DNA of 64,000 nt. It comes from Sipunculus nudus. Its lineage: Eukaryota > Annelida > Sipuncula > Golfingiida > Sipunculidae. Of the stretch, positions 14,910 to 38,900 are shown in pieces. Every line of letters begins with the position of its first letter. The stretch's first letter is position 1. The position numbers and the translations under genes are program-made. The DNA is taken from contig CM049306.1 of the NCBI GenBank assembly GCA_026874595.1, positions 27,705,519-27,769,518 of the forward strand, given 5' to 3'. Below the pieces are notes generated by a model. That model made no database searches and was not told where the DNA came from. It saw only the letters and a list, made by a program, of their open reading frames with translations.

Positions 14910-17900
14910 GTATGTTCCACATTCTGTAATCTGTAATAACTGTACAAATTGTCTTTGATGCTAACTTCTTCAGGCCAACAAAACACTATTTTATTGTGAT
15001 AATTTTGGATATTCAAGAAAAGAAATTAGTGTTCAGCATTCTACAATAGCTACACATTTTACGCTTATTTCTTGAGGCCTAATAAGACATATCCTGTGAT
15101 AATTATACATAGATTTACCTTTTTCAGAGTAGATACAGATGCAATATGTAAAGGGGTATAAAATTATGTTAATTGTCAATTTGAATCATGTAAATAAGGA
15201 ATTTTTTTATGATTAAGTTGACTGTATTTGTCCCCTATTTGTAAACATGATTATATCGTGACATTACTGTAGGTAGTGCACATTTCCTTTTTTAATTTAA
15301 ATTTTAAATTGTGTCAAGATTTCAATAATATTTGTAACTTGAAATGTATATGAGCTGATAATTTTGTTTATGTATGCTGTACATTTAGTATTTATGTGAC
15401 GTTCAAATCCATTGTTTTCTGAATTGTCCATTAACTTTTGCTCACTTTACTTTGACGTATTTTGTCATATAAACCATATAAGAGATATATCTGCTTTTGT
15501 TAGACACTGCCATGTAGCACTCATGAGTCATGACTGTTTGATAACACATTATTTTGTTGTATGCCAGACTTTATAATGATTTATTGTGACTTACAGTCTG
15601 CAAGAGTTGTATTGTACAACACCTGAACAGGAAGAACACCTGCCCACAATGCCTTAATGTGATTCATCAGAGCCACCCGAAAAACTACATCAGGTGAGAA
15701 AGTTAAATGTCCTTCAATATGTAATAATAAACATACATGTAGTGCCTTGACAATTTCACTGTAACTGTCAGGGTACACATCTTGTTAATTAAAATTGATT
15801 GTTTAATTCTCCTCTTAGTATAATGGATCAATTTCAGAGTGGTTTTGTACACAGGAAAGCACATATCAGAGCTCTTATTTTGAAAATAATCTTTGATTTG
15901 AAAATATATTTATTTAGTGGAGGAATATATACAGCCATTGAAGCTCAAGATGGTGATCATAGTGATTGTGAACTAGATACATAGGTTTATACCTGCATGG
16001 TGTTATAGATTGATAAAGTAAACTTTAAGCATTAATTATATTTATTCACTTTTGATATTTATATAGTTACAATGGTGAAATGACTTCAAATTATTTCTGT
16101 ACAAAGGCATCTGGGTCCAATTTCCCTATTAATTACAAGCTTACATGAAATTATAGGTCAGTATAGAGATTTATTATAATTGACTGATCTGATTAAGAAC
16201 TAGTAATTTTTTGTATGTGCCAGTGCTGATGAAGGCCTAGATGACGCCTAAAACTTTTTGTAACCAATGAACTTCCATGTAATAACTTCATTGCCTACTG
16301 GTAACCTGATGTGAACATCTGAATTTTTTGCAGCCATGACAGAACAATGCAGGATATTGTGTACAAATTAGTTCCAGAATTACAAGATGGTATGTACACA
16401 TGTTTTATACTTTCAGTTTCATGAACACTAAGATATGTAATATTTAGGTTTACAATCTTCCATAGGGATTGAAACAGTTTATATTAAAGGTGGATTTTAA
16501 AATGGATTTGCTTTGAATTTTTTATTAGTTTTCATATTGTTTGAAAGGTAATTTTATGCCTTGAGCAATTAAGCAGCTCTGAAGATTATCATTAGCTCAG
16601 CTGACTATAAGCCATCTTGAGCTGTAGTTGTGGACTTTTGTCCATTGGCAGCCATTGGTCCCTCAGTCCGTTAAACTAGCACATTTTGAAACCATTTGAC
16701 CTAGGAATCTGAAATTCGGCATACAGTTAGATGTCCTCAAAATCTCCTACCGTACTGATATATGGGTCAGTAGGGTCACTAGGACTTTGTTCCTTCAAGA
16801 TATTAAGGAAAAACCTCTGTTTTCTATTAAAAACTCATTGTTACACTTTAGGACTGCCTAATATCAAAACCACTTTTTTGTTTTCAATCATATTTTGTAT
16901 TTATATTCTTCCATATATTTCCTATGTACCTACCAAAATTTAGGTCAGTATTGCGTAATTTTTTGAAGTTATGGTGCCCGAACACCTTGTAAATATCAGT
17001 AAATATAATTACTCACTTAATATAAGGATTGCTGAAGGTAGAAACATTTTTTAGGGATATAACTTCATTTAATCAACATTGTGTACCCCCCTCCTCTAGT
17101 AGTTTTTTTGGCTAAAAACATTACAATAACCAATTTTTAGCTCAGCTGACTGTAAGTAAACTGAGGTATAGGAATGGCGCTTTGTCCTTCGTCCGTCCAG
17201 GTGTCCTGCCGTCCGTTAGCAGGGCACAATTCGTAACTGCTGGACCTAGAAACTTATACGTGGATATCCAGGGAGGTCAATAAAAAATCTCCTTAGAAAC
17301 CTGAAATTAGGTCACTGCGACCTATATCCTTCGAGCTATGGGGCTTGAAAGTACCCCCCAGAATAATCAAAAATATAATACAAAACCTCAAATATCTTGA
17401 TAATTAATGCAAGGATTGTCATGAATCTTGCCTTGAATATTGACCATGAATAGTTTTGTCAGTTCCCGAAAATTGGTGGTGCCACCTGGTTTTTAGCTCA
17501 GCTGACTATAAGTCATCTGAGCTATAGTTGTGGTCCATTGTCCGTCGTCCTTCCGTCTGTCCGTCCGTAGATGTGGCACGTTTTGAAACTGTAAGACCTA
17601 GAAATCCAAAATTTGGCATAATGTTAGATGTCCCCAAGATCTCCTACCAAGCTGAAAACTGGGTCTTTGCAACTACGTTCCTTTGAGAAATTAAGGAAAA
17701 ACCTCAATTTTTTATTAAAAACCTATTTTCACACTACAGGACTGCCTAATATCAAAACTACTCATCTGTTATTCCTCATATTTACCAAAAATATTCCTCT
17801 ATATAGTTCCTATGTACATGCCAGAAATTATGTCTGTATTATATAATTTAAAAAAGTTATGGGCCCAAACATAATGCATTTTGTAAAAAATCAGGAAAGA

Positions 17901-35900: not shown

Positions 35901-38900
35901 TCATCTGCCTTGGCGTAAAATCACTCATATCTCAGCAGTGGTTTGACATATCCACCTGAAATTTTGCAGGTTTATACATCCTGGACAGCTCTCTTGATTT
36001 TATAACAGGTGGAGCCACCTACATTCAGGTTTACTCTGCAGACATCCAAGCTCATATCTCGAGAACTGTTTGACCGATTGGGCCAAAAATGTGCATATGT
36101 TTAGATCTCACATAGGTCTTTATCATACACAAAACTGGAGGGGCCTCATGCAACCATTTTTGCACAGCATCTGTCTGTTTGTCTGCCGTGGGCTAAAATC
36201 ACTCATATACATGTAGTGGTTTGACTTTCTGCCTAAAAATTCGCATATGTATACAATTTGGACAGCTTTCTTGATTTGTGGTAGGTGGCACAACTACATA
36301 CACATTTAGGCTGCAGACATCCATGCTAATATGCCACACACCTCACTCTATTTCCCCTTGCCACTCAATCCATGCCTCACTTCACCCATTCCACTCTGAT
36401 TTTGGTCGATACACATAGTCGCTTGTTGACTACCCGTATTCTAGTTTTAAAATGTCCTAGTCTGAACCTTGCAGGTCCAAAATGTCCATTTTGCTGAAAT
36501 CATAATGACTAAGGTAGATATGCAGGACTTAATATTAGGCCAAAATAAAAAAAAAGTGTGGTTCTCAGGCACTTTTTTTCATAAATCAATGCGGGCGGGC
36601 GCTTTTTTTATTTTAAATTTTTTGGTATGTTTCAATAAAAATGTCAAATGATAAGGGAATAGCATGAAAATAACAGTTTTATTTTGCTCAATAAGTAAAA
36701 GCACTACAAAACAAAGGTATTTGTATGGTTTTATCTTCTTAAATGAAATATCGGAGCGGCAACAGCTCAAAATTGGAAAGTTTTTAATGAAAATCAAAAT
36801 AAAAATGTTTGATGCGGAGGTTTAACATTTATGCGGGCGGTGCCTGAGAACCATACCTTTAATTTTTTTTGGCCTTAAATTTAAAAAATAAACCTCCATT
36901 CATACTCCCAAACTTTGCACAGATTCGCATTAGGCCTGTAGGCCTTGTTTTAAAATGAAGTTTAGACATTTTGGGAGAAGAGACAATTAGGGAAGACCAT
37001 AGAGTTTTGTGTGGGCAGGTTAAACCTGCTCATTACTGAATAAGCCATCTACTCAACAGTCAGTAAATTCTCAAACAGTGTATGCATCTTCTAAAGCCAA
37101 TCGGTTTAATCTGAAGTAATTATTTAATTTAATTTAAAGTATTATTACTCAACTCAAGGCTAACCATACTGTACAAAACACCAATGGAGTGTGAATACTC
37201 TAGTTGAGATGACCTTTAATACTTAACTAAAGACTGTACAAACTGTACAAACAACATTCCACCCCTTGGATTGTGTGGACTCAAGTTGAGCTCATCTTAA
37301 ATGCTCAACTAATTAAAGTCTACCCCAGTTGGTTTCTCAGACACCCAGAGGGTTTGTTTGCACATCCCTTACATCATAAATGTTGAAAACAATCTCTCTG
37401 ATTTTTAGCTCAGCTGACTATAAGTCATCCGAGCTATAGTCGTGGTCCATTGTCCGTCGTCCGTCCGTCTGTCCGTCCGTCCGTCCGTAGATGTGGCACG
37501 TTTTGAAACCATAAGACCTAGGAATCCAAAATTCGGCATAATGTTAGATGTCCCCAAGATCTCCTACCAAGCCGAAAACTGGGTCTTTGCAACTTCGTTC
37601 CTTTGAGAAATTAAGGAAAAACCTCAATTTTTTATTAAAAACCTATTTTCACACTTCAGGACTGCCTAATATCAAAACCACTCATCTGTTTTTCCTCATA
37701 TTTACCATAAATATTCCTCTATATAGTTCCTATGTACATGCCAGAAATTATGTCTGTATTGTATAATTTAAAAAAGTTATGGGCCCAAACATAATGCATT
37801 TTGTAAAAAATCAGGAAAGATATTTTATCACTTAACACAAAAAATGTTAAAGCTATCGACCTTTTTTCCAGTAATATAACTTTAATTAATCAAAATTAAA
37901 TTGTATACCCAAAATTAGATGAAAATCTTTTAAATTTTCTAAAATATTAATAAAAAATAAAAAATTGGTACCTTAAATTTTGCCCAACTTTGACCATGGC
38001 ACGTTTTTTCCTGTAAGTACTGTGGATTTAATTTTCACATCATGTTTTTGTTAGCATTTCAACTGTTAACACCAAAAATTTGAAACCAGTTGATCAAAAA
38101 CTGTAGATTTTAATAAGTTTTCAAGCACCATGTAACATATTGTTTACATCAAGCTAGTGTTATGCAGTTTGCAAGAGCTCAGCTCCCCAGCTTCAGCTCT
38201 TAGTTCCTTAAATTCGGCATACAGTTAGATGTCTCCAAAATCCCCTACCATGCCAAGAATTTGGTCACTAGGACTTAATACCTTCGAGATATTAATGAAA
38301 AACTTCATTTTTCCATTAAAAACCCATTGTTACACTTCAAGACTGCCTAATATCAAAACCACTGATCTGACTTTAATCATAAATAATATACATATTTTTC
38401 ATTCTATATAAACATGCCAGAATGATGTCAGTATTGCGTAATTGTTTTAAGTTATGGGCCCAAACATAATGCACTTTGTAAAAAATCAAGAAATATATTT
38501 ACTCCCTTAACAAGGGCATTGCTGAAGCTAGAGATTTTTTTGTCAGGGATGTAACCTTATTTAATCAAGATTCAATTGAATACCCAAAATTAGTTCTGAA
38601 TTTTTCAAATTTTATAAGTTATTAGTATAAATATAAAATTAGTACCTTAAATTTTGCCCAACTGTGACCATGGCACGTTTGTGTCCTGTGAGCACTGTTG
38701 ATATAATTTTCATATCATGCACACATTAGGATTTCAGCTTTTTAGTTTAGAAAGCTGAAAGAAATTGGCCAAAAATTGTAGCTTTTATTAATGTTTTTTA
38801 TGAGACCCTGTCAGACTTTGGCTCTCTCCAGCCCCTCTTGAGACACCTGTATGTTGACCTTGTTGACCTTTCATCAAATTATGCACGCTTGAGGCGAGGC

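Follow-up and report, generated by a model that had tools for sequence, protein, structure and literature searches.

HINE families in the Sipunculus nudus genome: an interrupted 5′ hairpin and orientation domains shared between unrelated repeats

Introduction

The nearest described counterparts of the repeats considered here are the Helentron-associated interspersed elements (HINEs), for which the published plan runs from a 5′ subterminal inverted repeat (subTIR) through a complementary inverted repeat, a GTCY microsatellite, a central array, a 3′ subTIR and a palindrome to TT (PMC7492417). The repeats lie in a 64,000-nt stretch of the Sipunculus nudus genome (GCA_026874595.1, contig CM049306.1, positions 27,705,519–27,769,518, forward strand), hereafter the window. 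An original prediction, made from the DNA letters, concerned positions 17490 to 36947; the present analysis covered the window in full.

Judged by the portions of each paper drawn on here, four systems bear comparison. The Cg_HINE elements of Crassostrea gigas (PMC7492417) resemble the present families in their 11–12 bp 5′ subTIR with its inverted repeat, GTCC-type microsatellite, satellite-like array, 3′ subTIR and palindrome, TT target without target-site duplication (TSD), and several unrelated families per genome; their authors, too, could not tie the families to autonomous elements. However, integration in both orientations is reported for Cg_HINE, and those portions of the paper describe neither a fixed hairpin break nor orientation domains (the arms are compared by anatomy only). 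Helitron2 elements with asymmetric terminal inverted repeats (ATIRs; Bao and Jurka 2013, PMC3627910) share a 5′ hairpin that contains the 5′ ATIR, a 3′ ATIR ~20–30 bp from the end and ahead of a hairpin, and TTTT targets, and the 5′ hairpin was proposed to be destroyed, as replication ends, through pairing of the 5′ with the 3′ ATIR. Compensatory changes are reported there, whereas here covariation failed and support comes from a fixed mismatch that pairing with the 3′ copy relieves. Mite HINEs and Helentrons and Drosophila DINE-1 (Thomas et al. 2014, PMC4067079) are alike in subTIRs, 3′ palindrome, T-rich target and central repeats, and in a Helentron protein with Rep, PIF1 and endonuclease; partners were identified there via shared ends, whereas none has been so identified here. 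Finally, the IS200/IS605 elements of bacteria (IS608, ISDra2) are single-strand mobile elements whose orientation follows the direction of replication (PMC5371812), although they are bacterial, use another transposase and offer an analogy of mechanism only.

The repeats of the window are HINE families, and as such their architecture is already known; the parts worth specialist attention are the break in the 5′ hairpin and the orientation domains. We consider the families probable members of the Helentron (Helitron2/HLE2) group with strand-selective insertion, the target being most likely the lagging-strand template.

Results

Orientation domains are shared between unrelated families

The elements and other features on which the analysis rests are as follows (element E corresponds to D2 of the original prediction).

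1..3011, plus strand: A2, 5′ end beyond the window, 3′ end present twice in tandem.
17495..21252, plus strand: A1, head at 17495–17523 (C·T mismatch), ATAG, TCCG tract, ~680-bp repeats and 3′ arm copy from 21232; final 3′ bases lost; element C1 nested within.
19104..20270, plus strand: element C1, nested in A1; head at 19104–19132, 180-bp array, 3′ arm copy at 20237–20247, hairpin, CTAG followed by TTT.
23670..25140, plus strand: E, head GTATCC..GGATAC, 12-bp complementary 3′ arm copy, 6-bp 3′ stem weak against shuffles, CTAG followed by TTT.
28595..29539, plus strand: D3, head GCATCCACC..GTGGATAC with an internal loop, found by inspection; GGTGGCGCCACC-type repeats, 3′ hairpin AGTCG..CGACT, CTAG followed by TT.
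30702..34419, plus strand: B, A-type head (T·T mismatch), 337-bp repeats, end CATG followed by TTT; contains nested C2.
32444..33974, plus strand: C2, nested in B; head (C·C mismatch), 180-bp array, 3′ arm copy, hairpin, CTAG followed by TTT.
34850..36444, plus strand: D4, 278-bp repeats and D-type 3′ end, CTAG followed by TTTT.
36545–36875 (region 36.45–36.95 kb): inverted-ends repeat with ends GGTTCTCAGGCAC, not one of the described families; served as control.
37407..39858, plus strand: A3, complete A copy, CTTG followed by TT.
44215..45654, no strand: stretch in which orientation switches.
46781..49403, minus strand: A4, parts of both flanks in common with A1 (inverted duplication).
52400..54910, minus strand: A5.
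55122..56988, minus strand: A6.
57670..61691, minus strand: A7.

In the window, the 14 hand-listed ends up to 44.17 kb, left of the switch, are all on the plus strand, and the 8 from 45.68 kb onwards are all on the minus strand. Supply of T-runs was rejected as the cause of this switch, as T5 and A5 runs outside the elements number 74 and 70 to its left and 10 and 11 to its right.

The same behaviour was followed on one long contig (contig C1, distinct from element C1) of the genome that was scanned (1.43 Gb, 153 contigs). Genome-wide there are 8,451 C heads (≤3 mismatches; 0 in the reversed control) and 5,711 exact copies of the D 3′ end, and on contig C1 the 100 ends listed first for each family extend to 3.2 Mb for A, 14.8 Mb for D, 28.9 Mb for C and 38.6 Mb for the control. 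Pairs of C ends lie on the same strand in 14/14 cases below 20 kb, 16/18 at 20–50 kb, 12/16 at 50–100 kb and 19/37 at 100–200 kb; the corresponding values are 18/22, 16/25, 26/47 and 46/82 for D with D, and 17/19, 25/37, 33/52 and 35/74 for C with D. Within 50 kb, A agrees with D in 76 of 77 pairs and with C in 76 of 82. Agreement thus extends across families and fades by 100–200 kb, and circular shifts of the strands, which keep each list's own coherence, reach none of the cross-family values (0/99 each).

One domain occupies the first 1.15 Mb of contig C1, where the minus strand carries 55 of the 56 A heads listed and every C head (8) and D end (8) listed; the next ends in all three lists, at 1.23–1.25 Mb, are on the plus strand. 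Away from the contig start, domains measure some tens of kb. The latter size is near gene scale, as would be expected if insertion used a strand opened by transcription (the non-template strand, with R-loops), in which case element direction would follow genes and not forks, and a RAWUL-like plus-strand gene (26.5 and 29.7 kb; below the Pfam cut-off) does lie in the plus domain of the window. However, a single gene strand extending over ~1.15 Mb would be unusual, and contig C1 is nearly all minus over that length. We regard transcription as a somewhat unlikely source of the domains.

As a control we used one end of the unrelated inverted-ends repeat (GGTTCTCAGGCAC; 3,837 exact copies genome-wide), an earlier control repeat with 192 copies having been too sparse. 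The control agrees with C and D within 30 kb in 9 of 24 pairs, and two control ends within 50 kb of each other agree in 8 of 17, while C and D among themselves agree within 30 kb in 74 of 88, or in 44 of 58 in the 4.7–14.8 Mb interval where the control also overlaps; control–D pairs below 20 kb agree in 1 of 9. One control copy is listed before 4.7 Mb (the first, at contig C1:1.35 Mb), and the similarity between its two ends makes the control a less secure strand marker than a HINE end. A general repeat effect was rejected as the cause of orientation, given the lack of coherence in the control.

The same comparison bears on two further explanations. Selection could purge one direction of insertion inside genes and leave the other, and effects of repeat orientation in transcribed regions have a precedent in L1, at least in the part of that study consulted (PMC10030826). 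The control, with its 3,837 copies, shows no such coherence, and selection by itself would hardly be expected to bring families into agreement at 76 to 99%, which makes this explanation distinctly unlikely. Segmental or tandem duplication of multi-element blocks would likewise yield agreement. Some duplication is evident in the inverted flanks shared by A1 and A4, in a pair of C 3′ ends 842 bp apart at contig C3:44.235 Mb and in one 17-nt flank found five times among 94. Yet the listed A, C and D ends are irregularly spaced over contig C1:0–1.15 Mb, the window still holds 14 plus against 5 minus ends once the three ends of the A4 block are removed, and a control repeat carried in the same blocks should agree as well, which it does not. 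Duplication is therefore highly unlikely to account for the domains.

The orientation shared by unrelated families, and absent in the control, is thus consistent with an insertion step that they have in common and that recognises one strand, and suggests insertion into a single strand made accessible during replication or transcription. Among the open-access abstracts and passages searched (those of PMC5371812, PMC5876387 and PMC10030826 included), none described orientation domains in Helitrons or HINEs.

A built-in mismatch interrupts the 5′ hairpin

The second feature concerns the 5′ hairpin, which is interrupted by a mismatch at the position where the 3′ copy of the arm pairs; this mismatch is fixed in A and nearly so in C. 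At the eighth position of A, the left arm carries C, the right arm T and the 3′ copy G. After removal of reverse readings of the same hairpins, the A and B heads of the window and the fetched loci comprise 20 C·T and 1 T·T, and the tails have the pairing G in 17 of 17 cases. Genome-wide, A heads with the C·T mismatch occur in 21,691 exact copies, those with a perfect C–G pair in 97. The first 100 listed exact C heads are unpaired at this position in 98 cases (83 C·C, 7 T·C, 4 C·T, 2 T·T and 2 A·C) and paired in 2 (G–C); a C head with a perfected C–G pair has 19 copies genome-wide. With two G–C heads against two A·C, the listed heads give no sign of selection against perfected C forms in old copies. 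In E, the 3′ copy matches bases that are missing from the right arm.

Predicted duplex energies point the same way: in each of the six cases tried, the left arm forms a stronger duplex with the 3′ copy than with the right arm, the margin ranging from 0.7 kcal/mol, in B, to 8.3 kcal/mol. In most Cg_HINE elements, as described in the relevant part of that report, a single mismatch between the two subTIRs predominates (PMC7492417); therefore, the rule of a broken hairpin need not hold elsewhere.

The families follow a common end plan

The original prediction held that families unrelated in sequence follow one plan, and this is confirmed in part. Elements A, B, C and E have a common order of T-run, interrupted 5′ hairpin, tandem array, inverted arm copy, 3′ hairpin, CTAG or CTTG, and TT, except that B ends in CATG followed by TTT; D3 is a loose fit, and the 5′ hairpin of D4 is unclear. 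There are three types of arm: one common to A and B, one particular to C, and a GTATCC type in E and D3. Thus the claim stands for A and C, whose arms are unrelated in sequence but whose end geometry is shared, but not for A with B or E with D3.

A family-free scan for hairpins with two 13-nt arms, a loop of 3–5 and at most one mismatch recovered the heads of A, B and element C1 in one geometry, along with a few other hairpins in which the mismatch is placed elsewhere. This geometry consists of 7 bp, a 1×1 mismatch, 5 bp and a 3-nt loop, followed by ATAG and a TCCG/GTCC tract. The heads of C2 and A3, each with one further mismatch, fall outside the scan and were identified separately. The predicted head with a 3-nt loop and TCCG tract is accordingly found in A and C, and also in B, but D4 has no clean head and D3 has an internal loop. 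In folding comparisons of six heads, only 0 to 3 of 200 shuffles matched each.

At the other end, a scan for an arm with a local stem, an exact inverted 10-nt copy, a hairpin and CT(A/T)GTT returned nine rows, comprising element C1, C2, E (23.67–25.14 kb), two A copies (A6 and A7) and one chance pair; over 40 one-strand shuffles the average was 0.28 and the maximum 3. The remaining A tails show arm complementarity of 9–10 bp, so that the inverted head copy predicted near the 3′ end of A, C and E is borne out. A 5′ subTIR with a complementary inverted repeat downstream is present in A, B, C1, C2, E and D3 and not seen in D4, in which neither a clean head hairpin nor a 3′ inverted arm copy was found. 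The four 3′ hairpins are weaker than the heads, being equalled by 4 (C), 12 (A), 18 (D4) and 43 (E) of 200 shuffles; those of C and A are moderate and those of D4 and E poor by this measure. As predicted, TT follows all 13 of the ends found to stop at CTAG (5) or CTTG (8), a rule outside which the CATG of B falls. The tandem arrays are also real, at ~680 bp (A), 337 bp (B), 180 bp (C) and 278 bp (D4), and it is in the ends, not in these differing array lengths, that the common plan resides.

None of the window's stop-to-stop frames of at least 60 aa that were scanned (87 of 205) has a Pfam match to Rep, helicase or transposase; the matches obtained are RAWUL exons and weak ones only. No match was found in the viral_contigs, genome_contigs and plasmids collections.

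Convergence, or chance resemblance among repeats like miniature inverted-repeat transposable elements (MITEs) moved by unrelated enzymes, would leave the arms of A, C and E unrelated and no partner tied to any family, as is the case. Against it, A, B and C share the same hairpin break and T-run target, lack terminal inverted repeats (TIRs) and TSDs, and occupy common orientation domains; its chances appear very slim.

Three side observations concern the repeats themselves. The doubled tail of A2 (2920–3017) is a 46-bp unit that includes arm copy, palindrome and CTTG, which might reflect a second reading of the end or its duplication. The A1/A4 inverted duplication (17212–21738 and 46600–49720) includes a B fragment, a downstream stretch and the start of F at 87%, 92% and 90% identity, respectively. 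The palindromic motif CTGGTGGCGCCACCTG, which belongs to the GGTGGCGCCACC motif, occurs at 30 places between 4094 and 49457 (≤4 mismatches; 0–2 in five shuffles) and is common to the otherwise unrelated central repeats of families B, D and E.

The gene noted above consists of two plus-strand frames (26.5 and 29.7 kb) that match RAWUL with E-values of 9e-7 and 2e-5, both below the Pfam cut-off, and that we take to be exons of a PCGF3-like gene. Between them, just upstream of D3, is a 42-bp tandem array (27212–28423; 29 copies, 93% match).

Empty sites place insertions at T-runs without target-site duplication of ≥4 bp

Boundaries predicted from the letters could be defined by empty-site alignment for element C1, C2 and E. 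Four other A copies continue across the insertion point of element C1 without the insert, the empty site of C2 is given by other repeats of the surrounding B array, and E is hosted by an old A-like element, four A copies aligning with its joined flanks through the insertion point. No TSD of ≥4 bp was found at these three empty sites in the window, nor would one fit element C1 or C2, because their 3′ T-run is only 3 long. T counts in filled versus empty sites are 8 versus 5 for element C1 and 8 versus ~7 for C2, compatible with a duplication of 1–3 T.

The C 3′ end occurs at 201 places genome-wide and once in the reversed control. In the 94 of these ends read with their flanks, among 100 listed in contig order, the next base is T in 93 and the next two are TT in 85, the other nine being TC (3), TG (2), TA (3) and AT (1). 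The flanks mostly differ, but one 17-nt B-repeat flank is present five times and one A-tail flank twice, so the 94 need not all be separate events. The proposed insertion between T and T therefore describes most C 3′ ends, although the E junction, by inspection, reads A then TTT and thus has A on its 5′ side. Two C 3′ ends, at contig C3:44235222 and C3:44236064, lie 842 bp apart, and in both cases TTTTT and a C head come directly after the end; such a head-to-tail arrangement is what rolling-circle concatemers should give.

Two other classes were rejected. Canonical Helitrons (Helitron1; 5′-TC, 3′-CTRR, A/T target) do not match heads that read AGCTC or ATGCC after the T-run, nor a T–T target, and of the 3′ ends CTAG is compatible with CTRR but CTTG and CATG are not. 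A TIR transposon or MITE is at odds with a 3′ arm copy lying 22–30 nt inside the end (A, C and E) and with the lack of a TSD of ≥4 bp at element C1, C2 and E. The predicted assignment to a Helentron-type, pearl-like class is instead supported by the empty sites, the 94 C 3′ flanks and the match to published HINE anatomy.

The genome encodes Helentron proteins

Helitron_like_N has 143 matches in the genome, a figure that sets a minimum for places and does not equal the number of elements, and 0 in 14 control genomes. One open frame of 2,235 aa contains DUF6570, OTU, Helitron_like_N, PIF1 and Exo_endo_phos, the domain set described for Helentrons. Helentron copies on contigs C11 and C7 are 97.7–99.4% identical over the compared stretches, and the similarity between copies on contigs C4, C7, C8 and C11 continues past the fetched stretches. 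The Helentron ends lie beyond the stretches read, so that none is tied to A, C or E, and no pair is within 20 kb when 68 of the 143 Rep places are set against 58 of the 201 C tails. The suggested search for a Rep/helicase element therefore succeeded as to the frame, with Rep, helicase and endonuclease in the genome, but not as to the same ends. In an arbitrary 10-kb sample (L011), positions 2425–2555 resemble the Helentron loci L029, L031 and L033.

The idea of a single rolling-circle machinery mobilising these families thus fares well in part: the Helentron protein is present, and the shared orientation domains make one machinery likelier, but no protein is tied to these ends.

Discussion

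We propose, tentatively and as a quite possible rather than an established account, that a common Helentron machinery pastes a strand onto a T-run of exposed single-stranded DNA, in domains of tens of kb to 1 Mb, such that HINE direction would be a fossil of germline fork direction, as in bacterial IS200/IS605. The ends of IS200/IS605 elements also carry hairpins. A Rep/helicase/endonuclease would nick the 5′ end, and one strand would then be peeled off. Recognition of the 3′ end would depend on pairing between the 3′ arm copy and the left arm of the 5′ hairpin, an exchange of arms that the built-in mismatch would make favourable. The freed strand would finally join a T-run on locally single-stranded DNA, most likely the lagging-strand template at forks, in which case element direction would follow fork direction.

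Several points weigh against this reading. The pair counts overlap in members and are not independent, and they come from one contig only; beyond 3.3 Mb the agreement is weaker (C with D, 12/14 below 20 kb and 33/47 below 50 kb, the latter reached by 0 of 84 shifts). Skew was rejected as a fork marker, with GC skew positive at 13 of 17 loci and TA skew at 11 of 17, a weak bias (2 of 19 loci, with fewer than 800 unmasked bases, were dropped). At locus L003, an A head and a D tail point in opposite directions. In addition, fork, transcription and selection are not separated by these data. The fixed mismatch may derive from one founding event per family, copied into many dead elements; therefore, the counts show fixation and not repeated selection. 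Covariation of the left arm with the 3′ copy between C1 and C2 was rejected as proof of pairing since both changes are CpG transitions, which CpG decay explains, and among six further elements with an A variant in the 3′ arm the head was located in two, both retaining the left-arm C. Lastly, the search for an autonomous element bearing A, C or E ends yielded none in the copies examined, which extend beyond the stretches read.

To our knowledge, the insertion sites of eukaryotic rolling-circle elements, and any requirement for a single-stranded target, are open questions. If tens of thousands of ends, of any family, are indeed aligned by domain, strand-specific insertion would become testable in Helentron-rich genomes, and old insertions could chart the direction of germline forks or transcription. 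The fixed mismatch, in turn, offers a specific way to test the proposal of 2013 that replication is ended through opening of the 5′ hairpin by the 3′ arm.

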